DNA of 64,000 bases from Sipunculus nudus (taxonomy: Eukaryota > Annelida > Sipuncula > Golfingiida > Sipunculidae). The notes beneath the pieces were generated by a model, which worked only from the letters and a program-made list of their open reading frames with translations, had not been told where the DNA came from and made no database searches. A program made the position numbers and the translations under genes. Shown here in pieces: positions 1 to 59,940 of this stretch. Location of the stretch: assembly GCA_026874595.1 (NCBI GenBank), contig CM049317.1, positions 32,104,901 to 32,168,900 on the forward strand. The letters are read 5' to 3'. Each line of letters opens with the position of its first letter. Position 1 is the first letter of the stretch.

Positions 1-3000
1 TGAGTCCTACAGAAGTGGGTGATGGTCTCGTGACAGCAGGAGGAGTGTGTGGTGGTTCTGCGGGAACTGGTGATGAGTCCGCAGGAGTGGGTGATGGTCT
101 CGTGACATCAGGAGGAGTGTGTGATGGTCCTGCAGGACTGGGTGATGAGTCCTAAAGGTGTCTGTGATGGTCTCGTGACATCAGGAGGCGTGTGGGATGG
201 TCATGCGGGACTGGGAGATGAGTCCTGCAGGTGTGGGTGATGGTCACGTGAAATCAGGAGGAGTGTGTGATGGTCCAGCGGGACTGGGTGATGAGTCCTG
301 CAGGAGTTGGTGATGGCCTGATGACATCAGGAGGAGTGTGTGATGGTCCCGCAGGACTAGGTGATGTGTCCTGCAGTGATGTTCCTGCCGGACTCGTTGA
401 AGAGTTCTGCAGGAATAGGTGATGGTCTCATGACATCAGGAGGAGTGTGTGATGGTCCTGCCGGGCTGGATGATGAGTCCTACAGGAATGGGTGATGGTC
501 TCATGACATCAGGAGGAGTGTGTGATGGTCCCGCGGGAATGGGTAATGAGTCCTACAGGAGTGGGTGATGGTCTCGTGACATCGGGAGGAGTGTGTGATG
601 GTCCTGCGGGACTGGGTGATGAGTGCTACAGGAGTCGGTGATGGGTCTCGTGACATCAGGAGGAAAGTGTGATGGTCCTGCGGGACTGGGTGATGAGTCT
701 ACAGGAGTGTGTGATGGTCCTCAGGGACTGGATGATGAGTCCTGCAGGAGTGGGTGATGGTCTCATGACATCAGGAGGAGTGTGTGATGGTCCCGCGGGA
801 CTGGGTGATGAGTCCTGCAGGTGTGGGTGATGGTCTAATGACATCAGGAGGAGTGTGTGATGGTCCCGCGGGACTGTTTGATGAGTCCTGCAGGAGAGGG
901 TGATGGCCTCATGACATCAGGAGGAGTGTGTGATGGTCCCGCGGGACTGGATGATGAGTCCTGCAGGTGTGGGTGATGGTCTAATGACATCAGTAGTAGT
1001 GTGTGATGGTCCGGCGGGACTGGGTGATGAGTCTACAGGAGTGTGTGATGGTGCTCAGGGACTGGATGATGAGTCCTGCAGGAGTGGGTGATGGTTTCTT
1101 GATATCAGGAGGAGTGTGTGATGGTCCCGCGGGACTGTTTGATGAGTCCTGCAGGAGTGGGTGATGGCTTCATGACATCAGGAAGAGTGTGTCATGGTCC
1201 CGCGGGATTAGGTGATGAGTCCTGCAGAGTGGTTGACGGCCTCATGACATCAGGAGGAGTGTGTGATGGTCCCGTGGGACTGGGTGATAAGTCCTCCAGG
1301 AGTGGGTGATGGTCTCATGACATCAGGCGGAGTGTGTGATGGTCCCGCGGGACTGGGTGATGAGTCTACAGGAGTGTGTGATGGTCCTCAGGGACTGGAT
1401 GATGAGTCCTGCAGGAGTGGGTGATGGTCTCATGACATCAGGAGGAGTGTGTGATGGTCCCGCGGGACTGGGTGATGAGTCCTGCAGGTGTGGGTGATGG
1501 TCTAATGACATCAGGAGGAGTGTGTGATGGTCCCGCGGGACTGTTTGATGAGTCCTGCAGGAGAGGGTGATGGCCTCATGACATCAGGAGGAGTGTGTGA
1601 TGGTCCCGCGGGACTGGATGATGAGTCCTGCAGGTGTGGGTGATGGTCTAATGACATCAGTAGTAGTGTGTGATGGTCCCGCGGGAGTGGGTGATGAGTC
1701 CTGCAGGAGTGGGTGATGGACTCATGACATCAGGAGGAGTGTGTGATGGTCCCGCGGGACTGGGTGATGAGTACTGCAGGAGTGGGTGATGGTCTCATGA
1801 CATCAGGCGGAGTGTGTGATGGTCCTGCAGGACTCGTTGAAGAGTCCTGCAGAAATAGGTGATGGTCTCATGACATCAGGTCGAGTGTGTGATGATCATG
1901 CCGGACTTGGTGATGAGTCCTTCAGGAGTGGGTGATAGTCTCATGACATCAGGAGAAGTGTGTGATGGTCCTGCCGGACTGGGTGATGAGTCCTACCGGT
2001 GTCGGTGATGGTCTCGTGACATCAGGAGGAGTGTGTGATGGTCATGCGGGACTGGGTGATGAGTCCTACAGGACTGGGTGATGGTCTCATGACATTAGAA
2101 GGAGTTTTGGATGGTCCTGCGGGACTGGATGATGTTTATTGGAGGAGTGGGTGATGGTCTAATGACATCAGTAGTAGTGTGTGATGGTCCTGCGGGACTG
2201 GGTGATGAGTCTACAGGAGTGTGTGATGGTGCTCAGGGACTGGATGATGAGTCCTGCAGGAGTGGGTGATGGTTTCTTGATATCAGGAGGAGTGTGTGAT
2301 GGTCCCGCGGGACTGTTTGATGAGTCCTGCAGGAGTGGGTGATGGCTTCATGACATCAGGAAGAGTGTGTCATGGTCCCGCGGGATTAGGTGATGAGTCC
2401 TGCAGAGTGGTTGACGGCCTCATGACATCAGGAGGAGTGTGTGATGGTCCCGTGGGACTGGGTGATAAGTCCTCCAGGAGTGGGTGATGGTCTCATGACA
2501 TCAGGCGGAGTGTGTGATGGTCCTGCGGGACTCGTTGAACAGTCCTGCAGGAAAAGCTGATGGTCTCATGACATCTGAAGGGGTGTGTGATGGTCCTGCT
2601 GGACTGGGTGATGAGTCCTACAGGAGTGGGTGATCATCTCATGACATCAAGAGGAGTGTTGTATTGTCCTGCGGGACTTGGTGATGTTTCCACATGTGTG
2701 GGTGATGGTCTAATGACATCAGGAGAAGTGTGTGATGGTCCTGCTGGACTGGGTGATGAGTCCTACAGGAGTGGGTGATCATCTCATGACATCAAGAGGA
2801 GTGTTTGATTGTCCTGCGGGACTTGGTGATGTTTCCACATGTGTGGGTGATGGTCTAATGACATCAGGAGAAGTGTGTGATGGTCCTGCAGGACTGGGTG
2901 ATGAGTCCTACAGGAGTGGGAGATGGTCTCGTGACATCTGGAGGAGTTTTGTGATGGTCAGGCGGGACTGAGTGATGAATCCTACAGGAATTGGTGAAGG

Positions 3001-4764
3001 TCTCATGACATCAGAAGGAGTTTTGGATAGTCCTGCTGGACTGGATGATGGCTTTTGCATGCGCGGGTGATATTCTCATGACATCAGGAGGAGTGTGTGG
3101 TGGTTCTGCGGGAACTGGGTGATGAGTCCTACCGGTGTCGGTGATGGTCTCGTGACATCAGGAGGAGTGTGTGATGGTCATGCGGGAATGGGTGATGAGT
3201 CCTAGAGGAATGGGTGATGGTCTCATGACATTAGAAGGAGTTTTGGATGGTCCTGCGGGACTGGATGAAGGCTATTCCAGGAGTGGGTGATGACCTCATG
3301 ACATCAGGAGGAGTGTGTGATGGTCCCGCGGGAGTGGGTGATGAGTCCTGCAGGAGTGGGTGATGGACTCATGACATCAGGAGGAGTGTGTGATGGTCCC
3401 GCGGGACTGGGTGATGAGTACTGCAGGAGTGGGTGATGGTCTCATGACATCAGGCGGAGTGTGTGATGGTCCTGCAGGACTCGTTGAAGAGTCCTGCAGA
3501 AATAGGTGATGGTCTCATGACATCAGGTCGAGTGTGTGATGATCATGCCGGACTTGGTGATGAGTCCTTCAGGAGTGGGTGATAGTCTCATGACATCAGG
3601 AGAAGTGTGTGATGGTCCTGCCGGACTGGGTGATGAGTCCTACAGGAGTCGGTTATGGTCTCGTGACATCAGGAGTAGTGTGTGATGGTCCTGCGGGACT
3701 GGGTGATGAGTCTACAGGAGTGTGTGATGGTCCTCAGGGACTGGATGATGAGTCCTGCAGGAGTGGGTGATGGTTTCTTGATATCAGGAGGAGTGTGTGA
3801 TGGTCCCGCGGGACTGTTTGATGAGTCCTACAGGAGTGGGTGATGGCTTCATGACATCAGGAAGAGTGTGTCATGGTCCCGCGAGATTAGGTGATGAGTC
3901 CTGCAGAGTGGGTGACGGCCTCATGACATCAGGAGGAGTGTGTGATGGTCCCGCGGGACTGGGTGATGAGTCCTCCAGGAGTGGGTGATGGTCTCATGAC
4001 ATTAGAAGGAGTTTTGGATGGTCCTGCGTGACTGGATGATGGCTATTGCAGGAGAGGGTGATGACCTCATGACATCAGGAGGAGTGTGTGATGGTCCCGC
4101 GGGAGTGGGTTATGAGTCCTGCAGGAGTGGGTGGTGGCCTCATGACATCAGGAGGAGTGTGTGATGGGGCCCGCGGGACTGGGTGATGAGTACTGCAGGA
4201 GTGGGTGATGATCTCATGACATCAGGACGAGTGTGAAGATCATGCGGGACTGGGTGATGAGTCCTACAGGAGTGGGTGATCGTCTCATGACATCAGGAGA
4301 AGTGTGTGATGGTCCAGCGGGACTGTTTGATGAGTCCTGCAGGAGTGGGTGATGGCCTCATGACATCAGGAGGTGAGTTATGGTCCCGAGGGATGAGGTG
4401 ATGAGTCCTGCAGAGTGGGTGATGGACTCATGACATCCGGAGGAGTGTGTGATGGTCCCACGGGACTGGATGATGAGTCCTCCAGGAGTGGGTGATGGTC
4501 TCATCACATCAGGCGGAGTGTGTGATGGTCCTGCGGGATTCGTTGAAGAGTCCTGCAGGAAAAGCTGATGGTCTCATGACATCAGGAGGTGTGTGTGATG
4601 ATCCTCAGGGACTGGATGATGAGTCCTGCAGGAGTGGGTGATCGTCTCATGACATCAAGAGGAGTGTTTGATTGTCCTAAGGGACTTGGTGATGTGTCCA
4701 CATGTGTGGGTGATGGTCTCATGACATCAGGAGGAGTGTGTGATGGTCCCGCGGGACCGGGTGA
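1..4764. repeat. Higher-order repeat block I (4764 bp)
   Basis: This block begins with a diagnostic junction (a unit with AGAAGTGGG, then CTCGTGACAGCAGG and a TGGTGGTTCTGCGGG variant) that recurs at 4765, 7142 and, slightly altered, 10728. Block I equals block III plus a 1178-bp insertion: bases 1-1340 match 7142-8481, and bases from about 2190 to 4764 match 8153-10727 at a constant offset of 5963. The insertion shows as a direct repeat within block I, where about 1010-1340 recurs at 2188-2518 with an offset of 1178. A second internal repetition of 656-1000 at 1323-1680 has an offset of 667. These are offsets between diagnostic variants that I read directly. Confidence 0.85.
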
Positions 4765-7141
4765 TGAGTCCTACAGGAGTGGGTGATGGTCTCGTGACAG
4801 CAGGAGGAGTGTGTGGTGGTTCTGCGGGAACTGGTGATGAGTCCGCAGGAGTGGGTGATGGTCTCGTGACATCAGGAGGAGTGTGTGATGGTCCTGCAGG
4901 ACTGGGGGATGAGTCCTAAAGGTGTCTGTGATGGTCTCGTGACATCAGGAGGCGTGTGGGATGGTCATGCGGGACTGGGAGATGAGTCCTGCAGGTGTGG
5001 GTGATGGTCACGTGAAATCAGGAGGAGTGTGTGATGGTCCAGCGGGACTGGGTGATGAGTCCTGCAGGAGTTGGTGATGGCCTGATGACATTAGGAGGAG
5101 TGTGTGATGGTCCCGCAGGACTAGGTGATGTGTCCTGCAGTGATGTTCCTGCCGGACTCGTTGAAGAGTTCTGCAGGAATAGGTGATGGTCTCATGACAT
5201 CAGGAGGAGTGTGTGATGGTCCTGCCGGGCTGGATGATGAGTCCTACAGGAATGGGTGATGGTCTCATGACATCAGGAGGAGTGTGTGATGGTCCTGCGG
5301 GACTGGGTGATGAGTGCTACAGGAGTCGGTGATGGGTCTCGTGACATCAGGAGGAAAGTGTGATGGTCCTGCGGGACTGGGTGATGAGTCTACAGGAGTG
5401 TGTGATGGTCCTCAGGGACTGGATGATGAGTCCTGCAGGAGTGGGTGATGGTCTCATGACATCAGGAGGAGTGTGTGATGGTCCCGCGGGACTGGGTGAT
5501 GAGTCCTGCAGGTGTGGGTGATGGTCTAATGACATCAGGAGGAGTGTGTGATGGTCCCGCGGGACTGTTTGATGAGTCCTGCAGGAGAGGGTGATGGCCT
5601 CATGACATCAGGAGGAGTGTGTGATGGTCCCGCGGGACTGGATGATGAGTCCTGCAGGTGTGGGTGATGGTCTAATGACATCAGTAGTAGTGTGTGATGG
5701 TCCCGCGGGAGTGGGTGATGAGTCCTGCAGGAGTGGGTGATGGACTCATGACATCAGGAGGAGTGTGTGATGGTCCCGCGGGACTGGGTGATGAGTACTG
5801 CAGGAGTGGGTGATGGTCTCATGACATCAGGCGGAGTGTGTGATGGTCCTGCAGGACTCGTTGAAGAGTCCTGCAGAAATAGGTGATGGTCTCATGACAT
5901 CAGGTCGAGTGTGTGATGATCATGCCGGACTTGGTGATGAGTCCTTCAGGAGTGGGTGATAGTCTCATGACATCAGGAGAAGTGTGTGATGGTCCTGCCG
6001 GACTGGGTGATGAGTCCTACAGGAGTCGGTTATGGTCTCGTGACATCAGGAGTAGTGTGTGATGGTCCTGCGGGACTGGGTGATGAGTCTACAGGAGTGT
6101 GTGATGGTCCTCAGGGACTGGATGATGAGTCCTGCAGGAGTGGGTGATGGTTTCTTGATATCAGGAGGAGTGTGTGATGGTCCCGCGGGACTGTTTGATG
6201 AGTCCTACAGGAGTGGGTGATGGCTTCATGACATCAGGAAGAGTGTGTCATGGTCCCGCGGGATTAGGTGATGAGTCCTGCAGAGTGGGTGACGGCCTCA
6301 TGACATCAGGAGGAGTGTGTGATGGTCCCGCGGGACTGGGTGATGAGTCCTCCAGGAGTGGGTGATGGTCTCATGACATTAGAAGGAGTTTTGGATGGTC
6401 CTGCGTGACTGGATGATGGCTATTGCAGGAGAGGGTGATGACCTCATGACATCAGGAGGAGTGTGTGATGGTCCCGCGGGAGTGGGTTATGAGTCCTGCA
6501 GGAGTGGGTGGTGGCCTCATGACATCAGGAGGAGTGTGTGATGGGGCCCGCGGGACTGGGTGATGAGTACTGCAGGAGTGGGTGATGATCTCATGACATC
6601 AGGACGAGTGTGAAGATCATGCGGGACTGGGTGATGAGTCCTACAGGAGTGGGTGATCGTCTCATGACATCAGGAGAAGTGTGTGATGGTCCAGCGGGAC
6701 TGTTTGATGAGTCCTGCAGGAGTGGGTGATGGCCTCATGACATCAGGAGGTGAGTTATGGTCCCGAGGGATGAGGTGATGAGTCCTGCAGAGTGGGTGAT
6801 GGACTCATGACATCCGGAGGAGTGTGTGATGGTCCCACGGGACTGGATGATGAGTCCTCCAGGAGTGGGTGATGGTCTCATCACATCAGGCGGAGTGTGT
6901 GATGGTCCTGCGGGATTCGTTGAAGAGTCCTGCAGGAAAAGCTGATGGTCTCATGACATCAGGAGGAGTGTGTGATGATCCTCAGGGACTGGATGATGAG
7001 TCCTGCAGGAGTGGGTGATCGTCTCATGACATCAAGAGGAGTGTTTGATTGTCCTAAGGGACTTGGTGATGTGTCCACATGTGTGGGTGATGGTCTCATG
7101 ACATCAGGAGGAGTGTGTGATGGTCCCGCGGGACCGGGTGA
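4765..7141. repeat. Higher-order repeat block II (2377 bp)
   Basis: This is the shortest clean copy of the block. Its start matches base 1 onward, and its end (6174-7141) matches 3797-4764 at an offset of exactly 2377. Against blocks I and III it lacks one 73-bp unit near 5300: the offset to block I changes from 4764 to 4691, and the offset to block III from 2377 to 2450, both by exactly 73. It also lacks the 1-2-kb central portion present in I and III. The step of exactly one unit points to unequal exchange or replication slippage in register. Confidence 0.85.
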
Positions 7142-10100
7142 TGAGTCCTACAGAAGTGGGTGATGGTCTCGTGACAGCAGGAGGAGTGTGTGGTGGTTCT
7201 GCGGGAACTGGTGATGAGTCCGCAGGAGTGGGTGATGGTCTCGTGACATCAGGAGGAGTGTGTGATGGTCCTGCAGGACTGGGTGATGAGTCCTAAAGGT
7301 GTCTGTGATGGTCTCGTGACATCAGGAGGCGTGTGGGATGGTCATGCGGGACTGGGAGATGAGTCCTGCAGGTGTGGGTGATGGTCACGTGAAATCAGGA
7401 GGAGTGTGTGATGGTCCAGCGGGACTGGGTGATGAGTCCTGCAGGAGTTGGTGATGGCCTGATGACATCAGGAGGAGTGTGTGATGGTCCCGCAGGACTA
7501 GGTGATGTGTCCTGCAGTGATGTTCCTGCCGGACTCGTTGAAGAGTTCTGCAGGAATAGGTGATGGTCTCATGACATCAGGAGGAGTGTGTGATGGTCCT
7601 GCCGGGCTGGATGATGAGTCCTACAGGAATGGGTGATGGTCTCATGACATCAGGAGGAGTGTGTGATGGTCCCGCGGGAATGGGTAATGAGTCCTACAGG
7701 AGTGGGTGATGGTCTCGTGACATCGGGAGGAGTGTGTGATGGTCCTGCGGGACTGGGTGATGAGTGCTACAGGAGTCGGTGATGGGTCTCGTGACATCAG
7801 GAGGAAAGTGTGATGGTCCTGCGGGACTGGGTGATGAGTCTACAGGAGTGTGTGATGGTCCTCAGGGACTGGATGATGAGTCCTGCAGGAGTGGGTGATG
7901 GTCTCATGACATCAGGAGGAGTGTGTGATGGTCCCGCGGGACTGGGTGATGAGTCCTGCAGGTGTGGGTGATGGTCTAATGACATCAGGAGGAGTGTGTG
8001 ATGGTCCCGCGGGACTGTTTGATGAGTCCTGCAGGAGAGGGTGATGGCCTCATGACATCAGGAGGAGTGTGTGATGGTCCCGCGGGACTGGATGATGAGT
8101 CCTGCAGGTGTGGGTGATGGTCTAATGACATCAGTAGTAGTGTGTGATGGTCCGGCGGGACTGGGTGATGAGTCTACAGGAGTGTGTGATGGTGCTCAGG
8201 GACTGGATGATGAGTCCTGCAGGAGTGGGTGATGGTTTCTTGATATCAGGAGGAGTGTGTGATGGTCCCGCGGGACTGTTTGATGAGTCCTGCAGGAGTG
8301 GGTGATGGCTTCATGACATCAGGAAGAGTGTGTCATGGTCCCGCGGGATTAGGTGATGAGTCCTGCAGAGTGGTTGACGGCCTCATGACATCAGGAGGAG
8401 TGTGTGATGGTCCCGTGGGACTGGGTGATAAGTCCTCCAGGAGTGGGTGATGGTCTCATGACATCAGGCGGAGTGTGTGATGGTCCTGCGGGACTCGTTG
8501 AACAGTCCTGCAGGAAAAGCTGATGGTCTCATGACATCTGAAGGGGTGTGTGATGGTCCTGCTGGACTGGGTGATGAGTCCTACAGGAGTGGGTGATCAT
8601 CTCATGACATCAAGAGGAGTGTTGTATTGTCCTGCGGGACTTGGTGATGTTTCCACATGTGTGGGTGATGGTCTAATGACATCAGGAGAAGTGTGTGATG
8701 GTCCTGCTGGACTGGGTGATGAGTCCTACAGGAGTGGGTGATCATCTCATGACATCAAGAGGAGTGTTTGATTGTCCTGCGGGACTTGGTGATGTTTCCA
8801 CATGTGTGGGTGATGGTCTAATGACATCAGGAGAAGTGTGTGATGGTCCTGCAGGACTGGGTGATGAGTCCTACAGGAGTGGGAGATGGTCTCGTGACAT
8901 CTGGAGGAGTTTTGTGATGGTCAGGCGGGACTGAGTGATGAATCCTACAGGAATTGGTGAAGGTCTCATGACATCAGAAGGAGTTTTGGATAGTCCTGCT
9001 GGACTGGATGATGGCTTTTGCATGCGCGGGTGATATTCTCATGACATCAGGAGGAGTGTGTGGTGGTTCTGCGGGAACTGGGTGATGAGTCCTACCGGTG
9101 TCGGTGATGGTCTCGTGACATCAGGAGGAGTGTGTGATGGTCATGCGGGAATGGGTGATGAGTCCTAGAGGAATGGGTGATGGTCTCATGACATTAGAAG
9201 GAGTTTTGGATGGTCCTGCGGGACTGGATGAAGGCTATTCCAGGAGTGGGTGATGACCTCATGACATCAGGAGGAGTGTGTGATGGTCCCGCGGGAGTGG
9301 GTGATGAGTCCTGCAGGAGTGGGTGATGGACTCATGACATCAGGAGGAGTGTGTGATGGTCCCGCGGGACTGGGTGATGAGCACTGCAGGAGTGGGTGAT
9401 GGTCTCATGACATCAGGCGGAGTGTGTGATGGTCCTGCAGGACTCGTTGAAGAGTCCTGCAGAAATAGGTGATGGTCTCATGACATCAGGTCGAGTGTGT
9501 GATGATCATGCCGGACTTGGTGATGAGTCCTTCAGGAGTGGGTGATAGTCTCATGACATCAGGAGAAGTGTGTGATGGTCCTGCCGGACTGGGTGATGAG
9601 TCCTACAGGAGTCGGTTATGGTCTCGTGACATCAGGAGTAGTGTGTGATGGTCCTGCGGGACTGGGTGATGAGTCTACAGGAGTGTGTGATGGTCCTCAG
9701 GGACTGGATGATGAGTCCTGCAGGAGTGGGTGATGGTTTCTTGATATCAGGAGGAGTGTGTGATGGTCCCGCGGGACTGTTTGATGAGTCCTACAGGAGT
9801 GGGTGATGGCTTCATGACATCAGGAAGAGTGTGTCATGGTCCCGCGGGATTAGGTGATGAGTCCTGCAGAGTGGGTGACGGCCTCATGACATCAGGAGGA
9901 GTGTGTGATGGTCCCGCGGGACTGGGTGATGAGTCCTCCAGGAGTGGGTGATGGTCTCTTGACATTAGAAGGAGTTTTGGATGGTCCTGCGTGACTGGAT
10001 GATGGCTATTGCAGGAGAGGGTGATGACCTCATGACATCAGGAGGAGTGTGTGATGGTCCCGCGGGAGTGGGTTATGAGTCCTGCAGGAGTGGGTGGTGG

Positions 10101-10727
10101 CCTCATGACATCAGGAGGAGTGTGTGATGGGGCCCGCGGGACTGGGTGATGAGTACTGCAGGAGTGGGTGATGATCTCATGACATCAGGACGAGTGTGAA
10201 GATCATGCGGGACTGGGTGATGAGTCCTACAGGAGTGGGTGATCGTCTCATGACATCAGGAGAAGTGTGTGATGGTCCAGCGGGACTGTTTGATGAGTCC
10301 TGCAGGAGTGGGTGATGGCCTCATGACATCAGGAGGTGAGTTATGGTCCCGAGGGATGAGGTGATGAGTCCTGCAGAGTGGGTGATGGACTCATGACATC
10401 CGGAGGAGTGTGTGATGGTCCCACGGGACTGGATGATGAGTCCTCCAGGAGTGGGTGATGGTCTCATCACATCAGGCGGAGTGTGTGATGGTCCTGCGGG
10501 ATTCGTTGAAGAGTCCTGCAGGAAAAGCTGATGGTCTCATGACATCAGGAGGAGTGTGTGATGATCCTCAGGGACTGGATGATGAGTCCTGCAGGAGTGG
10601 GTGATCGTCTCATGACATCAAGAGGAGTGTTTGATTGTCCTAAGGGACTTGGTGATGTGTCCACATGTGTGGGTGATGGTCTCATGACATCAGGAGGAGT
10701 GTGTGATGGTCCCGCGGGACCGGGTGA
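7142..10727. repeat. Higher-order repeat block III (3586 bp)
   Basis: A nearly perfect copy of parts of block I. In the stretch compared at offset 5963 (about 2190-4768 against 8153-10731) the only differences I found by eye were A3884/G9847, T3419/C9382, A3996/T9959 and G4768/T10731. The block is 1178 bp shorter than block I. Such similarity over kilobases, in an array whose neighbouring units differ from one another at many sites, shows that the duplicated entity is the whole block and not the single unit. Confidence 0.85.
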
Positions 10728-13700
10728 TGATTCCTACAGGAGTGGGTGATGGTCTCGTGACAGCAGGAGGAGTGTGTGGTGGTTCTGCGGGAACTGGTGA
10801 TGAGTCCTATAGGAGTGGGTGATGGTCTCGTGACATCGGGAGGAGTGTGATGGTCCTGCGGGACTGGGTGATGAGTGCTACAGGAGTCGGTGATGGTCTC
10901 GTGACATCAGGAGGAAAGTGTGATGGTCCTGCGGGACTGGGTGATGAGTCTACAGGAGTGTGTGATGGTCCTCAGGGACTGGATGATGAGTCCTGCAGGA
11001 GTGGGTGATGGTCTCATGACATCAGGAGGAGTGTGTGATGGTCCCGCGGGACTGGGTGATGAGTCCTGCAGGTGTGGGTGATGGTCTGATGACATCAGGA
11101 GGAGCGTGTAATGGTCTTGCGGGACTGGGTGATGAGTCTACTGGAGTGTGTGATCGTCCTCAGGGACTGGATGATGAGTCCTGCAGGATTGGGTGATGGT
11201 CTCTTGATATCAGGAGGAGTGTGTGATGGTCCCGTGGGACTGTTTGATGAGTCCTGCAGGAGAGGGTGATGGCCTCATGACATCAAGAGGAGTGTGTGAT
11301 GGTCCCGCGGTACTGGGTGATGAGTCCTGCAGGTGTGGGTGATGGTCTAATGACATCAGGAGGAGTGTGTGATGGTACCGGGGGACTGTTTGATGATTCC
11401 TGCAGGAGTGGGTGATGGCCTAATTACATCAGGAGGAGTGTGTCATGGTCCCGCGGGACTGGGTGATGAGTGCTGCAGGAGTGGGTGATGATCTCATGAC
11501 ATCAGGAGGAGTGTGTGATGGTCCCGCGGGAATGGGTGATGAGTCCTACAGGAGTGGGTGATGGTCCCATGACATGAGGAGGAGTGTTTGATGGTCCTAC
11601 GGGACTTGTTGATGAGTCCGCAGGAGTGGGTGATGGTCTCACGACATCAGGAGGAGTGTGTGATGGTCCTGCAGGACTGGGTGATGAGTCCTAAAGGTGT
11701 CTGTGATGGTCTCGTGACATCAGGAGGCGTGTGGGATGGTCATGCGGGACTGGGAGATGAGTCCTGCAGGTGTGGGTGATGGTCACGTGAAATCAGGAGG
11801 AGTGTGTGATGGTCCAGCGGGACTGGGTGATGAGTCCTGCAGGAGTTGGTGATGGCCTGATGACATCAGGAGGAGTGTGTGATGGTCCCGCAGGACTAGG
11901 TGATGTGTCCTGCAGTGATGTTCCTGCCGGACTCGTTGAAGAGTTCTGCAGGAATAGGTGATGGTCTCATGACATCAGGAGGAGTGTGTGATGGTCCTGC
12001 CGGGCTGGATGATGAGTCCTACAGGAATGGGTGATGGTCTCATGACATCAGGAGGAGTGTGTGATGGTCCCGCGGGAATGGGTAATGAGTCCTACAGGAG
12101 TGGGTGATGGTCTCGTGACATCGGGAGGAGTGTGTGATGGTCCTGCGGGACTGGGTGATGAGTGCTACAGGAGTCGGTGATGGGTCTCGTGACATCAGGA
12201 GGAAAGTGTGATGGTCCTGCGGGACTGGGTGATGAGTCTACAGGAGTGTGTGATGGTCCTCAGGGACTGGATGATGAGTCCTGCAGGAGTGGGTGATGGT
12301 CTCATGACATCAGGAGGAGTGTGTGATGGTCCCGCGGGACTGGGTGATGAGTCCTGCAGGTGTGGGTGATGGTCTAATGACATCAGGAGGAGTGTGTGAT
12401 GGTCCCGCGGGACTGTTTGATGAGTCCTGCAGGAGAGGGTGATGGCCTCATGACATCAGGAGGAGTGTGTGATGGTCCCGCGGGACTGGGTGATGAGTCC
12501 TGCAGGTGTGGGTGATGGTCTAATGACATCAGGAGGAGTGTGTGATGGTACCGCGGGACTGTTTGATGATTCCTGCAGGAGTTCATGATGGCCTAATGAC
12601 ATCAGGAGGAGTGTGTGATGGTCCCGCGGGACTGGGTGATGAGTCCTGCAGGAGTGGGTGATGATCTCATGACATCAGTAGGAGTGTGTGATGGTCCCGC
12701 GGGAATGGGTGATGAGTCCTACAGGAGTGCGTGATGTCCCATGACATGAGGAGGAGTGTTTGATGGTCCTACGGGACTTGTTGATGAGTCCGTAGGAGTT
12801 GGTGATGGTCTCACGACAACAGGAGGAGTGTGTGATGGTCCTGCAGGACTGGGTGATGAGTCCTAAAGGTGTCAGTGATGGTCTCGTGACATCAGGAGCC
12901 GTATGGGATGGTCATGCGGGACTGGGAGATGAGTCCTGCAGGTGTGGGTGATGGTCTAATGACATCAGGAGGAGTGTGTGATGGTCACGCGGGACTGTTT
13001 GATGAGTCCTGCAGGAGTGGGTAATGGCCTCATGACATCAGGAGGAGTGTGTGATGGTCCCGCGGGACTGGATGATGAGTCCTGCAGGAGTGGGTGATGG
13101 TCTCATGACATCAGGAGGAGTGTGTGATGGTCCCGCGGGACTAGATGATGAGGCCTGTAAAAGTGGGTGATGGCTTTATGACATCAGGAGGAGTGTATGA
13201 TGGTCCCGCGGGACTAGGTGATGTGTCCTGCAGTGATGTTCCTGCGGGACTCGTTGAAGAGTTCTGCAGGAATAGGTGATGGTCTCATGACATCAGGAGG
13301 AGTGTGTGATGGTCCCGCGGGACTGGATGATGAGTCCTGCAGGAGTGGGGGATGGTCTCATGACATCAGGAGGAGTGTGTGATGGTCCCGCGGGACTAGA
13401 TGATGAGGCCTGCAGGAGTGGGTGACGGCCTTATGACATCAGGAGGAGTGTGTGATGGTCCCGCGGGACTAGGTGATGTGTCCTGCAGTGATGTTCCTGC
13501 GGGACTCGTTGAAGAATTCTGCAGGAATAGGTGATGGTCTCATGACATCAGGAGGAGTGTGTGATGGTCCTGCCGGGCTGGATGATGGGTCCTACAGGAG
13601 TGGGTGATGGTCTCATGACATAAAGGGGAGTGTTTGATGGTCCTGCGAGACTTGGTGATGAGTCCGCGGGAGTGGGTGATGGTCTCATGACATCAGGAGG

Positions 13701-14202
13701 AGTGTCTGATGGTCCTACAGGACTGGGTGATGAGTCCTACCGGTGTCGGTGATGGTCTCGTGACATCAGGAGGAGTCTGTGATGGTCATGCGGGACTGGG
13801 TGATGAGTCCTACAGGACTGGGTGATGGTCTCATGACATTAGAAGGAGTTTTGCATGGTCCTGCGGGACTGGATGATGGATATTGCAGGAGTGGGTGATG
13901 ACCTCATGACATCAGGAGGAGTGTGTGATGGTCCCGCGGGAGTGGGTGATGAGTCCTGCAGGAGTGGGTGATGGCCTCATGACATCAGGAGGAGTGTGTG
14001 ATGGTCCCGCGGGACTGGGTGATGAGTCCTGCAGAAATAGGTGATGGTCTCATGACATCAGGACGAGTGTGTGATGATCATGCGGGACTTGGTGATGAGT
14101 CCTACAGGAGTGGGTGATAGTCTCATGACATCAGGAAAAGTGTGCGATAGTCCTGCCGGACTGGGTGATGAGTCCTATAGGAGTCGGTGATGGTCTCGTG
14201 AC
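10728..14202. repeat. Partial and rearranged higher-order copies
   Basis: The fourth block begins like the others but soon jumps, skipping the portion equivalent to roughly 70-540 of block I, then resumes (10907-11095 matches 656-844). A further partial copy restarts inside it: 11610-12420 matches 76-900 of block I at offsets near 11540. Beyond 12600 the units keep the 73-bp plan but no longer follow blocks I-III closely, for example a local repeat of the segment with TGTCCTGCAGTGATGTTCC at about 13225 and 13480. This arm ends inside module A at the transposon target site. Confidence 0.75.
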
Positions 14203-14210
14203 ATCAGCAG
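14203..14210. repeat. Left 8-bp target site duplication (ATCAGCAG)
   Basis: These eight bases directly precede the CAGGGTT end of the inserted element. They match the right-hand flank ATCAGGAG except for one base. The undisturbed array has ATCAGGAG at this position of module A, so the C is a later change in the left copy. An 8-bp duplication is the hallmark of the hAT superfamily. Confidence 0.75.
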
Positions 14211-15737
14211 CAGGGTTAGGTTTTAGGCTGCCCAAAACCTGTTTTCGGCAGGGCAGAGCCTAAAACATGCCTTTAACTGCCTAAAATAGGTTATAACCTG
14301 CCTTAAACTGCCTTTAACTGCCTAAAACCTTATTTACCCTTACCTATGACTTTTAGTTTAACTATGTTTTTTTGTTAAACATCTAAATGCATTAAAGAAA
14401 TATGCTCAACAAATTATAATTGAGGATCATTTTATTCAAACTAAACAAATTAAACCATGACACAATAAAAAGCAACAAATGAATTCAACACTACTTCAGG
14501 GATTTCATTATGAACACAGTTCTCCGACTCTCCTACCTCCATTACTGCCAATTTATAAAAAAATGCTCTTACTTTAAGCTTATAACCAGATACTTTTATT
14601 GGCTTTTTGATCACAAGGGATTAAATTTTGTGATAAATGGAAAAGAAGTTTTCCTGGATTTAAAATGTTGTTCCATTTACACTGATGAATAGTTCTTTAT
14701 ACTGTAGCTTCACTAACATAACATGTTTATTTTGTATGCCTGTAGCTTCAATGGCAAAAAGCATTGGATTGGATTTATAAATTATTACATATCTTTATGC
14801 TAGCCATAAAACTAAAAATATGATAATATCTGATAATGAACAAGAATTTCCACTATTTGTTTATTCCCTTAGCTAGGTCATCCCTTGTCAAATTTTAAGA
14901 TTTTGTGCACATACTTATCTTCTATATAATGATGGATATACTCTGTTAATTGTATGATGAAATTGTAAAAATGGAACCCTCATTAAACACTATAATTAGT
15001 ATAAAACTGAAAATGTGAAAATATTTTGCAATGAATATGTTGCAAACCACAGAATATTCATAATTACTCAGGGGCTGTGTTAAACCTAAAGGCCTGAGGG
15101 GCACTGACTGCATCACTCAGTAAAATGTTTGCTCAAGAACAGTCTTCAGGGCAAGGGCTTTGATTGCATCCTCCTAGTCACGTATGAAAGTTGACATGAA
15201 CATCTACTAGGACACAGTAGTAGGACTTATGACCATTAGGTCTTATGACCCCATCACCCTGATAAATTGTAATTAACTTGTCTAATCAAGTAGTCCTCCC
15301 CTCTGATAGTGATACCCTGTCTTACAAGGGCAAACTGGAGGCTGTATTACATCATTCAAGGTAGCTGGGCACTCATCAGGAAACCCAAAAGGTCCTGATA
15401 ATGTCATTACCTTGGCCAATAAAACTATGTGCCACACAAACATGGTCTCATGTTCAGACACCTATACAGGCTCTTTGAAGACTGCATGGTACCAGCCAAC
15501 AGGAAATCATGCATTTTTAATACTTGATAGCTTCCAGAAGCCCAGCAAAGCCTTGTGACTGCTTCACCCCAGCCAGTATGGTAGTTTTACAGATCTTTAA
15601 GTAAAAAATGTAAACAAATATAGGTTTTGGGCACTTTTAGTCCCTAAAACCTGCCTAAAACCTGTTTTAGGCGGGGCGGTTTTAACCAGGTTATAACCTA
15701 TGGTTAAAACCTTCATGCCTAAAACTTGCCAACCCTG
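14211..15737. mobile_element. Non-autonomous hAT-like DNA transposon (1527 bp) inserted in the array
   Basis: The element replaces nothing: the array stops in module A and resumes in module A after an 8-bp duplication. Its ends are inverted: the left begins CAGGGTTAG and continues GTTTTAGGC after a short gap; the right end, read on the other strand, begins CAGGGTTGGCAAGTTTTAGGC. The CAGGG start and 8-bp duplication fit hAT elements. Both subterminal regions (14211-14345 and 15620-15737) are crowded with CCTAAAAC/GTTTTAGG motifs, and both hold the palindrome AGGTTATAACCT as part of a 15-bp perfect inverted match (14286-14300 and 15687-15701). The interior is AT-rich with no transposase-like frame: the longest frame with a start codon is 60 codons (14510-14692) and resembles nothing I know. 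It must have been mobilised in trans, if at all. A piggyBac or Tc1 assignment is excluded by the duplication length. Confidence 0.82.
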
Positions 15738-15745
15738 ATCAGGAG
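15738..15745. repeat. Right 8-bp target site duplication (ATCAGGAG)
   Basis: The unchanged copy of the target, identical to the consensus of module A. It is followed directly by GAGTGTGTGATGG of the same module, so the array reads through if the element and one duplication are removed. Confidence 0.8.
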
Positions 15746-18700
15746 GAGTGTGTGATGGTCCTGCGGGACTGGGTGATGAGTCTACAGGAGTGTGTGATGG
15801 TCCTCAGGGACTGGATGATGAGTCCTGCAGGAGTGGGTGATGGTTTCTTGATATCAGGAGGAGTGTGTGATGGTCCCGGGGGACTGTTTGATGAATCCTG
15901 CAGGAGTGGGTGATGGCTTCATGACATCAGGAAGAGTGTGTCATGGTCCCGCGGGATTAGGTGATGAGTCCTGCAGAGTGGGTGATGGCCTCATGACATC
16001 AGGAGGAGTGTGTGATGGTCCCGCGGGACTGAGTGATGAGTCCTCTAGGAGTGGGTGATGGTCTCATGACATCAGGCGGAGTGTGTGATGGTCATGCTTG
16101 ACTCGTTGAACAGTCCTGCAGGAAAAGCTGATGGTCTCATGACATCAGAAGGAGTGTGTGATGGTCCTGCGGGACTGGGTGATTAGTCCTACAGGTGTGG
16201 GTGATCGTCTCATGACATCAAGAGGAGTGTTTGATTGTCCTGCCGGACTTGGTGATGTGTCCACATGTGTGGGTGATGGTCTAATGACATCAGGAGAAGT
16301 GTGTGATGGTCCTGCAGGACTGGGTGATGAGTCCTACAGGTGTCGGAGATGGTCTCGTGACATCTGGAGGAGTTTTGTGATGGTCATGCGGGACTAAGTG
16401 ATGAATCCTACAGGAATTGGTGAAGGTCTCATGACATCAGAAGGAGTTTTTAATGCTCCTGCGGGACTGGATGATGGCTCATCCAGGCGCGGGTGATATT
16501 CTCATGACATCAGGAGGAGTGTGTGGTGGTTCTGCGGGAACTGGTGATGAGTCCTATAGGAGTCGGTGATGGTCTCGTGACATCGGGAGGAGCGTGTGAT
16601 GGTCCTGCGGGACTGGGTGATGAGTGCTACAGGAGTCGGTGATGGTCTCGTGACATCAGGAGGAAATGTGTGATGGTCCTGCGGTACTGGGTGATGAGTG
16701 TACAGGAGTGTGTGATGGTCCTCAGGGACTGGATGATGAGTCCTGCAGGAGTGGGTGATGGTCTCATGACATCAGGAGGAGTGTGTGATGGTCCTGCGGG
16801 ACTGGGTGATGAGTCCTGCAGGTATGGGTGATGGTCTAATGACATCAGGAGGAGTGTGTGATGGTCCCGCGGGACTGTTTGATGAGTCTTGCAGGAGTGG
16901 GTGATGGCCTCATGACATCAGGAGGAGTGTGTGATGGTACCGCAGGACTGGGTGATGAGTCCTGCAGGTGTGGGTGATGGTCTAATGACATCAGGAGGAG
17001 TGTGTGATGGACCCGCGGGACTGTTTGATGAGTCCTGCAGGAGTGGGTGATGGCCTCATGACATCAGGAGGAGTGTGTGATGGTCCGCGGGACTGGGTGA
17101 TGAGTCCTGCAGGAGTGGGTGATGATCTCATGACATCAGGAGGAGTGTGTGATGGTCCCGCGAGAATGGGTGATGAGTCCGCATGTCTGTGTGATGGTCT
17201 CATGACATCAGGAGAAGTGTGTGATGGTCATGCATGACTTGGTGATGAGTCCTACAGATGTCGGTGATGATCTCATTACATCAGGCGGAGTGTGTGATGG
17301 TCCTGCGGGACTGGGTGATGAGTCCTACAGGAGTGGGTGATAGTCCCATGACATGAGGAGGAGTGTTTGATGGTCCTACGGGAATTGGTGATGAGTCCGC
17401 AGGAGTTGGTGATGGTCTCAGGACATCAGGAGGAGTGTGTGATGGTCCTGCAGGACTGGGTGATAAGTCCTAAAGGTGTCTGTGATGGTCTCGTGACATC
17501 AGGAGGCGTGTGGGATGGTCAGGCGGGACCTGGTGATAAGTCCTAGAGGAGTTGGTGATGGTCTCATGACATCAAGAGGAGTGTGTGATGGTCCCGCGGG
17601 ACTGGCTGATGATTCCTACAGGAGTGGGTGATGGTCTCATGACATCAAGAGGAGTGTTTAATGGTGATGCGGCACTTGCTGATGAGTCCGCAAGAGTTGG
17701 TGATGGTCTCATGACATCAGTAGGAGTGTATGATGGTCCTGCAGGACTGGGTGATGAGTCCTACAGGAGTCGGTGATGGTCTCGTGACATCAGGAGTAGT
17801 GTGTGATGATCATGCGGGACTTGGTGATGAGTCCTACAGGAGTGGGTGATAGTCTCGTGACATCAGGAGGAGTGTGTGGTGGTCATGCGGGACTGAGTGA
17901 TGAATCCTACAGGAATGGGTGAAGGTCTCATGACATCGGAAGGAGTTTTGGATGGTCTTGTGGGACTGGATGATGGCCCTTGCAGGCGCGGGTGATATTC
18001 TCATGACATCAGTAGGAGTGTGTGGTGGTTCCTTGATATCAGGAGGAGTGTGTGATGGTCCCGCGGGACTGTTTGATGAGTCCTGCAGGAGTGGGTGATG
18101 GCTTCATGACATCAGGAAGAGTGTGTCATGGTCCCGCGGGATTAGGTGATGAGTCCTGCAGAGTGGGTGATGGGCTCATGACATCAGGAGGAGTGTGTGA
18201 TGGTCCTGCGGGACTCGTTGAACAGTCCTGCAGGAAAAGCTGATGGTCTCATGACATCAGAAGGGGTGTGTGATGGTCCTGCGGGACTGGGTGATGTGTC
18301 CTACAGGAGTGGGTGATCGTCTCATGACATCAAGAGGAGTGTTTGATTGTCCCGCGAGAATGGGTGATGAGTCCGCATGTCTGGGTGATTGTCTCATGAC
18401 ATCAGGAGAAGTGTGTGATGGTCATGCATGACTGGGTGATGAGTCCTACAGATGTCGGTGATGATCTCATGACATCAGGCGGAATGTGTGATGGTCCTGC
18501 GGGACTGGACGATGAGTCCTACAGGAGTGGGTGATGGTCCCATGACATGAGGAGGAGTGTTTGATGGTCCTACGGGAATTGGTGATGAGTCCGCAGGAGT
18601 TGATGATGGTCTCAGGACATCAGGAGGAGTGTGTGATGGTCCTGCAGGACTGGGTGATGAGTCCTAAAGGCGTATGTGATGGTCTCGTGACATCAGGAGG

Positions 18701-20229
18701 CGTGTGGGATGGTCATGCGGGACCTGGTGATAAGTCCTAGAGGAGTTGGTGATGGTCTCATGACATCAGGAGGAGTGTGTGATGGTCCCGCGGGACTGGC
18801 TGATGATTCCTACAGGAGTGGGTGATGGTCTCAGGACATCAAGAGGAGTGTTTAATGGTCCTGCGGCACTTGGTGATGAGTCCGCAGGAGTTGGTGATGG
18901 TCTCATGACATCAGTAGGAGTGTGTGATGGTCCTGCAGGACTGGGTGATGAGTCCTACAGGTGTCGGTGATGGTCTCTTGACATCAGGAGGCGAGTGGAA
19001 TGGTCATGCGGGACTAGGTGATGAGTCCTACAGGAGTGGGTGATGGTCTCATGACATGAGGAGGAGTGTGTGATGGTAGAGCGGGACTGGCTGATGAGTC
19101 CTATATGAGTCGGTGATGGTCTCGTGACATCGGGAGGAGTGTGTGATGGTCCTTCGGGACTGGGTGATGACCCCTACCGGAGTCGGTGATGGTCTGGTGA
19201 CATCAGGAGGAGTGTGTGATGGTCCTGCGGGACTGGGTGATGAGTCTACAGGAGTGTGTGATGGTACCTCAAGGACTGGATGATGAGTCCTGCAGGAGTT
19301 GGTGATGGTCTCTTGATAACAGGAGGAGTGTGTGATGGTCCCGCGGGACTGTTTGATGAGTCCTGCAGGAGTGGGTGATGGCCTCATGACATCAGGAGGA
19401 GTGTGTCATGGTCCCGCGGAATTAGGTGATGAGTCCTGCAGAGTGGGTGATGGCCTCATGACATCAGGCGGAGAGTGTGATGGTCCTCTGGGACTTGGTG
19501 ATGTGTCCGCATGTGTGGGTGATGGTCTCATGACATCAAGAGAAGTGTGTGATGGTCCTGCAGGACTGGGTGATGAGTCCTACACGTGTCGGTGATGGTC
19601 TCGTGACATCAGGAGGAGTGTGTGGTGGTCATGCGGGACTGAGTGATGAGTCCTACAGGAATGGGTGAAGGTCTCATGACATCGGAAGGAGTTTTGGATG
19701 GTCTTGTGGGACTGGATGATGGCCCTTGCAGGCGCGGGTGATATTCTCATGACATCAGTAGGAGTGTGTGGTGGTTCTGCGGTAACTGGTGATGAGTCCT
19801 ACAGGTGTCTGTTATGGTCTCGTGACATCAGTAGGCGTGTGGGATGGTCATGCGGGACTGGGTGATGAGTCCTAGAGGAGTTGGTGATGGTCTCATGACA
19901 TCAGGAGGAGTGTGTGATGGTCTCGCGGGACTGGTTGATGAGTCCTGCAGGAGTGGGTGATGGCCTCATGACATCAGGAGGAGTGTGTGATGGTCCCGCG
20001 GGACTGGGTGATGAGTCCTGCAGGAGTGGGTGATCGTCTCATGACATGAAGAGAAGTGTTTGATGGTCCTGCGGGAATTGGTGATGAGTCCGCAGGAGTG
20101 GGTGATGGTCTCATGACATCAGGAGGAGTGTGTGATGGTCCTACAGGACTGTGTGATGAGTCCTACAGGTGTCGGTGATGGTCTCGTGACATCAGGAGGA
20201 GTGTGTGATGGTCATGCGGGACTGGGTGG
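15738..20229. repeat. 73-bp three-module tandem array, right arm
   Basis: The same 73-bp unit continues after the transposon for about 4.5 kb, roughly 60 units by length. The higher-order structure differs from that of the left arm: a segment around 17520-17776 recurs at 18715-18970 with an offset of 1194, and a segment with GGAAGGAGTTTTGGATGG at 17880-18010 recurs at 19620-19760. More units carry private changes, and some junctions are out of register (for example near 18025, where a TGGTGGTTC variant runs into CTTGATATCAGG). The array stops cleanly within module B at about 20229, where the sequence changes to AT-rich DNA within one or two bases. Its open frames are by-products of the repeat. 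Confidence 0.95.
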
Positions 20230-25592: not shown

Positions 25593-26268
25593 TCATGCCG
25601 TGCACCATAATGATATCAGCTGAATACATCGCCTCTGAATTCCTTGTTCTAAGGATTTAAGATCCTCTCGAATTGACGAAATGTCAGAAGGGTTATTAAT
25701 AGCATGAACATGGTCTGGAAATTAAACAGTTTTAGGCGTATCTTGGGACAGGTCAAGGTATTTCTGAGCGAGATTAGCTAACTGCTCAGCTCTTGCAGCT
25801 GCTGGAGCTGCCATTACAATTGCCCGCTGACAATCACTTGGCAAGGTATGCAGAAATTTATTTATGATCTGATCATCAGAATACGATATACGTTGTGCTG
25901 CAATGCGTATCCGACCTAAATTATGCTCAGCTGACTCACCTGGTTTATACCCAAGTTCATTGAAATATTTAACATTTGCAAATTCTGTATGAGTTGGATT
26001 AAATCGATGAATGAAAGCATGTTTCAAATTCTGTACATCAAAAAATTTCCCCTGTATCCACAGTCTTACTTCACCTGTGAGGGAAAGACGAAACCGAGTG
26101 GTAACATCATTCATTTGTTCCCCTTCCGGTTCTTGGAGACCATGCATATGCAAATAGTCCATAAAGTTTTACCAGTGGCTAATAGCTTTTTCATGGCTAA
26201 CCATTCTCCACGTCAAACTTTGGATCAGGCAAAAAATCAGTGGGACGAAGGGCCGGAGCCTGTGCCAT
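25593..26268 (-). pseudogene. Broken retrotransposon gag (capsid region)
   Basis: On the minus strand an ATG at 26268 opens a frame with the N-terminal pattern M-A-Q-A-P-A-L-R-P-T-D and a P-K-F-D motif, typical of LTR-retrotransposon Gag N-termini. It reaches a stop at 26197-26199. The next segment continues in another frame (H-E-K-A-I-S-H-W), is stopped by TAA at 26169-26171, and then runs for 146 codons from 26162 to 25722. That segment contains F-R-L-S-L-T-G-E-V-R-L-W, a helix-rich A-F-I-H-R-F-N-P stretch, G-E-S-A-E-H-N-L-G-R-I-R and F-L-H-T-L-P-S-D, the usual order of the Retrotrans_gag capsid region. After the stop at 25722-25724 the same frame stays open for another 42 codons, rich in charged helix-forming residues. 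I see no zinc knuckle, protease or reverse transcriptase nearby. It has at least one frameshift and two internal stops, so it is dead as a unit. Assignment to Ty3/Gypsy is inferred from the Gag style. Confidence 0.78.
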
Positions 26269-35590: not shown

Positions 35591-36500
35591 GGTTTTTAGC
35601 TCAGCTGATTGAAAACATCTGAGTTTTTATAATCCCGCTTTGTTTGTCGTACGTCCGTTTCTCTGTTTGTATCTTCGTTTTTCCATTAACCAAGCACAAA
35701 TTGTAACCGCTGGACCTTGAATCTTCTAATTTAACATCCTCGGAGTTCCAATAAAAATCTCCTGGGAAAACTAAAATTAGGATTCTATTTACCATATCCT
35801 CAGAGCTATGGGGATCAGAAGTACCCCCAGAAATACTTAAACATTGATATAAAAGCTCCAGGATCTGAACAACGAATTTAGCACCATGATTCTTTTCTTT
35901 CCTTTTTATCATGCACTCTTTCATCAGTTCCTGCAGACAGGTGATGCCGTCTGTTTTTTTAGTCGTCCGTTAACAGGGTAGAAATCGAAACACCTGAGAT
36001 CTTACAATTCAACATCCAGGGAGATCCATGATAAAAAAATCCGCTTAAAAAACAGGAAAAAAGTCTCTGTTAACCATATCCTTTGAGCCATAGGGTTTGT
36101 AATACCCCTCAGTGTGATTGAAAATTTGATACCAAACCTCCAGTTTCTGAAAAACTAATGCCTTCATCTCTATGATTCTTTGCATGCACACTCATCATTG
36201 ACCGTTCTATCAGTTCCTGTAGGCTGGTGGCACTTCCTGCATTGTTTTCTTTTTTTACCGTAAACTTTTATTTTCAAGACCTTCAAAGATTAATAGGGCA
36301 CAAATCATTACCATTGCAACTAGAATCTTCGCACTTGTCATCCAGGGAGGTCTGTGAAAATTTTTACTAAATCTGAAATATGGTCACCTATTTGTTACCT
36401 ATATTCTCTGAGCTATGCTTCAGGTAAATCGGGATACCACCTACAAAATTAGGAATCAAATGATAAATTTCCTTTCTTGAATCTTTTCCATGTCAGTTGG
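35590..36500 (-). repeat. Dispersed repeat family 3 with three internal repeats, minus strand
   Basis: Read on the minus strand this ends with a segment matching TAGCTCAGGTGAC..CAGCTAAAAA at 59905-59935. Upstream are three successive diverged units of about 290-320 bp. Each carries an AACATCC..GGAGxTCC segment, a CATATCCTCAGAGCTATGGGG-like segment and an ATGATTCTTT segment (plus-strand positions near 35735, 36010 and 36335). The equivalent at 59280-59940 has two units. No transposase is seen. The end block is nearly palindromic. The 107-codon frame 35601-35924 lies wholly inside one repeat unit and is not called as a gene. Confidence 0.65.
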
Positions 36501-58431: not shown

Positions 58432-59279
58432 GCCTCACAGCATATATTGCCACCAGCTCTCCCTGCTGCATGCAAAGTCTCCCTGCCGACACTTAATTCT
58501 TTTGTACCCTTCCAGTACAAATGAAAGGTATCCAGTAATACTCACTGATAACAACACTGTACACCATACTACAGTTGCGAAAACCATTCTGCGGATCCCC
58601 TGAGTTTTAATACTAATGGAAATAATAATAACAGGATGTATTATTCACTAACGGCTCCAGCAGAAAACCCATATGCATCCGAGTAAATTGGATTAGTGGT
58701 ATGGCCATAGGCGTATACAGCAAACTGAAGCTGATAACATTGTCATCAACAGCGTATCCGTTGGCCCCTATATTTTAAATTGTCGCATCGTACCAAGACG
58801 GCAGTATAACCAAAACAGGGAACTATCCGGGAAAGGTTTGGCAATGGTTGTATGAATAGGTATGAAACATACTTTCATTTGCATTTTACAGTCAGTACGA
58901 ACGTCTTCACAGACAGATCTGATTTTGAATTGTCTGCGTCAAAACCTTTGTTGTACTGTTATAAAAAAAAAGTTTTATTTGCAATTGATTGAAAAGTTTT
59001 TTTTTTATGTTACTTTGAATAATTCAACCAAACAATGTCTTATTAAAATAGGTGACCTATTGGTCATGACGGTCAGCTGATTGTTGATTTGTTCGTATTG
59101 GTTAATGTGTGATATTAGCGGCATCTATGTGTTTGGTACTGGTTGTCCTAAAGGCTCTGAACAAAATCCTAATGTTTATCCAAATGAAGTCATATTGACC
59201 TAATTACCAATTTAGAAGAATAAGCACCTGTAATGATGAAAATGTCTTGACAATTAAAAAAAAAAACACAGGTTGCGTG
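58430..59279. other. AT-rich stretch, nothing recognised
   Basis: No supported frame or repeat partner. Confidence 0.4.
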
Positions 59280-59940
59280 GCCAGTCTGTGGGTACCTAGG
59301 AAACCCTCCATGATTAATATGAAAGCAAAGAATCATTGGGACCAATGTACTAGGTATTCAGATACAGGAGCGTTTTCTGTCATTTTTTTATTATTCTAGG
59401 GATGTTTACGAGCTCCATAATTTGAAGGATATGGATACCAGAGACCTAATTTCAGGTTTCCCAGGATATATTTCATGGACCTCTTTGGATATCAGGTAAG
59501 AATATTCTAGTTCGAATGTGACGAATTGTGCCTTGTTAAGGGACAACCGCTTCATTTGAAGGTCCAAAATAGGGAGGAAGTCGAAAAAATACAAAAATAA
59601 TAAACAGTTTGAGCCAACAATTTGCATGAACTTATGAAATACTTAGAATCAATATGTGTGCAAAGGATCATGGCGAACAAGCATAAGTTATTCAGATACT
59701 TGAGCCTTAGTTTCAAGCTTTAATTATTCTGGGAACATTTAGCTCAGAGTATATGGGTAACAGAGACCTAATTTTAGGTTTCCAAGGATATATTTATTCA
59801 CTTAGAAGTTTCTAGTTCCAGTGTTTATGATTTGTGCCCTGCTTACGGACGGAAGGCCGGACAACCGGACGGAAGGACGACTGACAAAGGCCCATCGCTA
59901 TAGCTCAGGTGACTTTCATTCAGGTCAGCTAAAAACGGAA
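59280..59940 (+). repeat. Dispersed repeat family 3 with two internal repeats, plus strand
   Basis: Two tandem units are visible. Each carries AAGxATCATxGxG, a TATTCAGATAC segment, ATTATTCTxGGxA, GAGACCTAATTTxAGGTTTCC and a TTGTGCCxTG segment (59330-59550 and 59665-59840), spaced about 340 bp. It ends in GGAC-rich repeats (GGACGGAAGG repeated, 59848-59880) and a near-palindromic TAGCTCAGGTGAC..TCAGGTCAGCTA block (59904-59934). It matches the minus strand of 35590-36500 over its full length. Confidence 0.68.

Follow-up and report, generated by a model that had tools for sequence, protein, structure and literature searches.

Tetris/TIR-220 of Drosophila virilis is an apparently non-autonomous, foldback-like DNA transposon with internal tandem repeats and target duplications of 8–10 bp, the repeats also occurring in long satellite-like arrays that are regarded as having grown within the element and disrupted it (PMC4079207). 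In this study, we analyzed a stretch of 64,000 bp from Sipunculus nudus, referred to as the window (C12:32104901-32168900, C12 being contig CM049317.1; genome of 1.43 Gb in 153 contigs), the left part of which contains a tandem array of a 73-bp repeat with palindromic cores. Based on its comparison with arrays of the same unit on other chromosomes, we regard this array, with a probability of about 0.85, as a satellite that goes back to a family of non-autonomous DNA transposons of the cut-and-paste type, in which the palindromes are a by-product and do not represent a conserved code of binding sites or foldbacks. Among the described systems, Tetris is the closest in behavior, since its internal repeats also gave rise to satellite arrays (PMC4079207). 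Its unit measures about 220 bp and its arrays comprise up to 66 copies, compared to 73 bp and an array of about 60 kb here, and its unit and end share a stretch of 37 bp, while the 73-bp unit revealed no significant similarity to the 34-bp terminal repeat (taken from the copy on C7). An origin of the unit from the transposon end in the manner of Tetris was rejected, as 246 of 2000 shuffles scored as well.

Other known systems share single features with the elements described below. The Tm1 Mutator/Foldback family of root-knot nematodes likewise displays 9-bp target duplications and composite ends with a variable number of tandem repeats, but its repeats are of about 14 bp and form most of the terminal repeat, and some of its copies encode a transposase (PMC3169594), which was not found in the open frames scanned here. 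With Merlin, the agreement is limited to ends starting with GG and target duplications of 8 or 9 bp (PMC8101967). The Helitron-carried satellites of Crassostrea gigas are similar in that mobile elements carry and disperse tandem arrays (PMC8268682). They differ from the present elements, which show 9-bp duplications and inverted ends. Helitrons are not known to make a target duplication. Literature searches for a published description using short strings of the unit and the ends returned, among the matches listed, only a 10-letter unit string in papers with unrelated titles, and no match was obtained for a 73-bp bivalve satellite. The array would represent another case of the route described for Tetris, on which tandem repeats inside a transposon turn into a large satellite, and apparent intermediates occur in one genome, namely elements that have ends and small arrays, an element of 53 kb in which both ends are present, and a free array of 60 kb.

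Besides C12, the 73-bp unit was found in arrays on C5, C6, C7, C9, C10, C14, C16, and C17, which is a lower bound. After masking, the flanks of the arrays matched one another, mostly with about 80–99% in long matches, and array-to-flank junctions were common to copies on several chromosomes. One flanking segment, named OUT by us (as are S338 and R9 below), terminates at one exact point (...GGAATAACCCTCACC) in C5, C7, and C16, and the opposite end of the element begins with the inverse complement of this terminus. Two kinds of sequence come after the shared end (GGTGAGGGTTATTCCGCTCCCAGTCACGC). The ends form a terminal inverted repeat of 34 bp (GGTGAGGGTTATTCC...), the two ends of the C7 copy being 97% identical over 34 bp. 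A search of the genome with a 25-base end pattern resulted in 39 matches, compared to none for the reversed control, and 20 of the 39 form ten facing pairs. Target duplications of 9 bp were perfect (9/9) at C5, C7, C8b, C10, C14b, and C16 and nearly so (8/9) at C6 and C8a; the C16 copy, for example, is flanked on both sides by TGGTAAAAC and the C7 copy by TAGGCTGTA. Thus, inverted ends at exact boundaries and a target duplication of fixed size, the features of a DNA transposon with terminal inverted repeats, were both detected. The right ends of the two C17 loci revealed an identical flank of 14 bases, so that one duplicated segment looks likelier here than two insertions.

The paired-end copies range from 3.7 to 52.9 kb in length, and the array lies clearly inside six of the ten (C5, C6, C7, C9b, C10, and C16). 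C8b harbors short array remnants of 15 and 6 modules, C14c a trace of three modules, and C14b no array; of C8a, the ends alone were read. The largest copy, on C16 (47,083,051–47,135,978, 52.9 kb), is organized in the order end, OUT, minus-strand array, spacer, plus-strand array, OUT, end, its plus-strand array extending over about 43.7 kb (about 47,088,593 to 47,132,305, based on both ends and four 601-base samples). The copy on C14 has the same order, except that no right end was located there. C9b is composed of end I, S338, R9, minus-strand array, spacer, plus-strand array, OUT, and end II, and the C7 copy of end I, plus-strand array, OUT, and end II. Long inverted repeats with tandem repeats, as in elements of the Foldback type, are thus present in C16, whose arms are of the same kind, and inverted arrays around a spacer were identified in C9b and C10; the C7 copy, with one array and inverted ends of 34 bp, does not have this structure. 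At C5, a head-to-head junction of opposite arrays was observed (L009 4388-4392). One transposon arm contains a 338-bp tandem repeat, to which the window has matches of about 64–72% at 35686-36417 (plus strand) and 59256-59849 (minus strand); this repeat is perhaps widespread. Inside C8b (L069:4679-5068), a frame of 130 codons gave weak leucine-rich-repeat/F-box matches below the Pfam cut-offs and is possibly a piece of a host gene carried in the element.

In regard to the C12 array, its unit consensus is one base away from the consensus of C7, C9, C10, and C16. No transposon ends were found at C12, either in segment L040, which covers 9.2 kb left of the array, or in the window, allowing at most 8 edits in 30 bases, and of the ten loci compared C12 alone is without an adjoining element flank or end. 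Most likely, the C12 array is a greatly expanded copy that was left without element ends. The earlier note had taken positions 1-20229 of the window as array throughout; the 73-bp repeat is real and its last base is 20228, but 14211-15737 turned out to be an insertion (Table 1). The array is prolonged to the left of the window, where segments L019 and L020 (apart from a hAT-like copy) and the samples L029–L033 consist of array, and its left edge lies near L040:9222, at about C12:32,064,621. This results in a total of about 60.5 kb, partly sampled, since C12 32,065,501-32,083,900 was read as three 600-base samples only. One inverted segment of 2.7 kb lies inside the array (L020 4855-7532).

Self-comparison revealed block repeats of 0.4–2.7 kb with 95–99% identity within the array, at no fewer than fourteen further offsets besides those of 5963 and 7141 bp. 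The insertion, which is assigned to hAT-like elements based on its CAGGG-type end and the 8-bp target duplication, has a second copy 26.4 kb to the left that is 99.74% identical and flanked by a target duplication of 8/8. The flanks of the two copies are alike as well, at 99.7% along 286 bp on one side and, on the opposite side, at 99.5% along 600 bp, so the insertion was copied together with its flanks in a duplication of the block holding it. The block duplications and the copied insertion show that the array has grown in place at C12. Satellite DNA denotes a long tandem array homogenized by exchange, which is what about 60.5 kb with block duplications of 95–99% identity represents. CpG in the array is at 0.42–0.45 of expectation compared to 0.70–0.75 in the flank, which agrees with CpG decay but falls short of proof; in the hAT-like insertion (14217-15737) it is depleted to 0.11. 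The window contains three frames that span at least 130 codons from stop to stop, none of them within the array.

Table 1. Features of the 73-bp array located in the window (positions of the window).
Feature	Position	Strand	Basis or remark
73-bp tandem array, left part (modules B 21 bp, C 22 bp, A 30 bp)	1..14210	+	module parse; extends leftward beyond position 1
hAT-like non-autonomous insertion, ends CAGGGTT	14211..15737	.	8-bp target duplication ATCAGCAG/ATCAGGAG, 7/8
73-bp tandem array, right-hand part	15738..20228	+	stops just past B module, without transposon ends
Perfect B palindrome GTCCCGCGGGAC, example	790..801	.	located in sequence
Perfect C palindrome TCCTGCAGGA, example	740..749	.	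located in sequence
Block with copy 5963 bp downstream, 99.1% identity (duplication within array)	2107..4856	+	self-comparison
Block with copy 7141 bp downstream, 99.3% identity	1..1372	+	self-comparison

Taken together, the simplest order of events would be that the element brought the repeat to C12, where unequal exchange or block duplication may have enlarged a copy or a piece of its array to about 60 kb, the array outgrowing the element so that its recognizable ends were lost. Element copies, arrays included, would be moved between chromosomes by a transposase from elsewhere. Within the unit, a palindromic core of about 21 bp would have multiplied and drifted, and the palindromes would remain as a by-product.

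Parsing of window positions 1-14216 and 15738-20228 led to 779 modules (266 B, 267 C, and 246 A), the surplus of B and C over A being mainly due to BC doublets without A. Exact counts in 1-20229 were 533 for GTGATG, 49 for GTCCCGCGGGAC, 80 for TCCTGCAGGA, and 145 for TCATGA. Based on the palindromes, the earlier note had proposed that a 21–22-mer tripled and that three palindromic cores were kept across roughly 250 units. Its alignment of B and C with one insertion was reproduced (score of 30; shuffled mean 7.2, standard deviation 3.4), and module A aligned to B and C as well, with scores of 20 and 23. Related modules of about 21 bp thus exist, B and C being close and A carrying an insertion of 9 bp, and the 73-letter repeat probably grew from a shorter ancestor. 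The TCATGA core of module A is present too, but it sits inside the 9 bp that are inserted in A compared to B and C, so that homology of all three cores is not shown. In the divergent arrays of C5 and C6, TCCTGCAGGA forms the majority core of module C, and the majority B module of C6 contains CTGCAGGAC; we infer that an ancestral palindromic core of about 21 bp, similar to TCCTGCAGGA, multiplied and then drifted, partly at CpG/TpG/CpA steps. Because B and C share ancestry, their two palindromes count as one event. Among 3000 dinucleotide shuffles of the unit form with perfect palindromes, 68 contained a palindrome of 12 bp or longer and 8 contained two palindromes of 10 bp or longer. A hammerhead ribozyme was considered on account of the resemblance of module C to CTGATGAGTCC and was dropped, as no match in the window reached the Rfam gathering score and no such ribozyme was among 15 weak matches in 700-2200.

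The perfect palindromes of B and C pointed out in the window are both present (Table 1), yet perfection is not the rule. In modules without gaps or insertions, to which all palindrome counts refer, it was found in 68 of the 247 B modules and 66 of the 207 C modules of the window and, for the 6-bp core, in 138 of 228 A modules. At B position 11 of the window, T is commonest (153; C 100), and such a T disrupts the palindrome if position 14 is G. For comparison, ten arrays were used, namely C12 and nine arrays from eight further contigs, with C17 contributing two; block 1 of the window, L020 7533-7826, L020 1-4854, and one C10 array were parsed separately and then included. Perfect B palindromes amounted to 116/423 at C12, 13/40 at C5, 2/11 at C6, 4/31 at C7, 7/37 at C9, 20/56 at C10, 2/14 at C14, 4/129 at C16, and 6/11 and 5/10 at the C17 loci. 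The corresponding values for C were 115/361, 18/40, 6/12, 1/32, 3/34, 1/58, 0/14, 0/126, and 0/11 and 1/11, while the 6-mer of A was perfect in 240/390 at C12 and in 1/13 to 51/55 elsewhere. Outside C12, the majority core of B is the imperfect GTCCTGCGGGAC in six of nine arrays and the perfect GTCCTGCAGGAC in three, and that of C the imperfect TCCTACAGGA in seven and the perfect TCCTGCAGGA in two.

The palindromes were also not less variable than the rest of the unit. Mean diversity of distinct modules was 0.173 at the 28 palindromic positions compared to 0.160 at the 45 others (p = 0.62; loci represented by less than five distinct modules of the respective type, as C14 was for B, left out), tests of the single modules revealed no difference (p of 0.70, 0.67, and 0.82), and the window by itself gave 0.209 and 0.177 (p = 0.43). 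Since blocks recur and only 89–90 distinct forms exist per module type (B 90/266, C 89/259, and A 90/245 modules counted in the window), the units of the window are not some 250 independent witnesses. Covariation was assessed by comparing paired letters with within-locus shuffles, with shared ancestry uncontrolled. It was absent in C (920/1275 compared to 925.8 ± 4.6), in A (672/807 compared to 672.8 ± 3.0), and in B–C pairing inside the unit (2987/4044 compared to 2995.4 ± 6.6; at C12 above none of 300 shuffles), and weak in B, chiefly at C12. Over all loci, B had 1071/1422 paired letters compared to 1053.2 ± 5.5 in shuffles, and outside C12 637/852 compared to 633.9 ± 3.2, a value that 110 of 500 shuffles attained. 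Double changes in B numbered 44 over all loci (35.2 ± 2.9 in shuffles) and 13 at C12 (8.8 ± 2.2), nine of the latter at pair 11/14, a CpG site. The earlier note had named equal variability of palindromes and remaining positions, without covariation of the arms, as the outcome that speaks against its proposal, and this is largely what was observed, the weak signal in B being the exception. With imperfect majority cores in most other arrays in addition, the claim that three palindromic cores were kept was not supported.

Maintenance of the palindromes as regularly spaced binding sites of dimeric proteins or as foldback nuclei would account for the symmetry of the perfect units and for the excess of pairing in B, most of which comes from C12. 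Single units also fold somewhat better than shuffles (z of −1.04 to −3.39 in six units, mostly B with C or C with A), which we read as a result of homologous palindromic cores and no sign of maintained pairing. Given palindromic positions that are not less variable, no covariation in C, A, and B–C, majority forms that are imperfect in six (B) and seven (C) of the nine other arrays, and no clear excess for B outside C12, conserved palindromes were rejected on variability and covariation, and we consider their maintenance very improbable. Since the palindromes largely failed across the other arrays, striking consensus palindromes in satellites can be inherited by-products. A role of the 73-bp repeats as accessory binding sites of a transposase, with the repeat selected as a binding site rather than for its symmetry, is compatible with a transposon-derived satellite. 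The repeats lie inside the transposon, in inverted pairs in several copies, and such sites have been proposed for Galileo and Foldback-like elements, Galileo having binding sites in the tandem repeats of its long ends (PMC3688188). However, in the copies measured, the distance between an end and the start of the array is 0.4 to about 5 kb, one copy of 3.7 kb whose target duplication is perfect lacks the array, and unit and 34-bp end are without significant similarity; on balance, we judge this role unlikely.

An uptake by the transposon of a satellite that already existed, on C12 or at another place, would fit the fact that C12 is the largest array read and has the most distinct units (177/433 counted, in what is also the largest sample). 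Such a capture appears distinctly unlikely, as internal array junctions are common to copies on several chromosomes, no element flank or end was found beside the C12 array, and the more divergent consensus types, C5 and C6, sit in elements. A more far-reaching version of the transposon origin, in which a DNA transposon reaching about 53 kb, with tens of kilobases of its own satellite enclosed by intact ends and perfect 9-bp duplications, serves as a vehicle of satellite DNA from chromosome to chromosome, the repeat acts as an accessory transposase-binding array, and copies that have lost their ends become free satellites like that of the window, seems to us speculative and rather doubtful.

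Several points weigh against the origin of the C12 satellite from the transposon family. The direction from transposon to C12 is suggested by parsimony, i.e., by the shared internal junctions and the single locus without ends, and the middles of the C12 and C16 arrays were sampled only. Furthermore, 19 of the 39 ends are unpaired, and two of the ten pairs are without a matching duplication (C9b 5/9, C14c 4/9). C6 and both C17 loci have a majority B core with a perfect palindrome, and the excess of paired letters in B at C12, though small (434/570 compared to 419.2 ± 4.5), was reached by none of 500 shuffles. In addition, no transposase match was obtained in nine of the eleven listed open frames of element loci that were scanned, a scan by which spliced genes would be missed, and the smallest distance between an end and a MULE-domain match is 99 kb (94 of 131 listed matches compared, 93 of them on contigs holding an end).

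In regard to the superfamily, a target duplication of the Mutator type (8–10 bp, usually 9 bp) is present, but this size is shared with Merlin and thus not decisive, and features of the Merlin type, i.e., ends beginning with GG and a duplication of 8–9 bp, are present as well. The genome contains at least 131 MULE-domain matches (150 of 252 candidates scored) and at least 150 matches to the domain DDE_Tnp_IS1595, the latter with no match in the nine scanned open frames of element loci. No domain match of either type could be linked to the ends, the distances being computed for MULE. A MULE family with frames of 607 codons was found at C10:17575435 and dozens of other places, two of its copies agreeing at 98% across almost all of a 6-kb stretch, which does not extend to the ends of this family. 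Many transposase frames of the IS1595 type with near-equal scores were observed on the small contigs C101–C138, which could represent a co-assembled organism. In the window itself, an open frame of 148 codons (25722-26168, minus strand) without a Pfam match resembles a retrotransposon gag.

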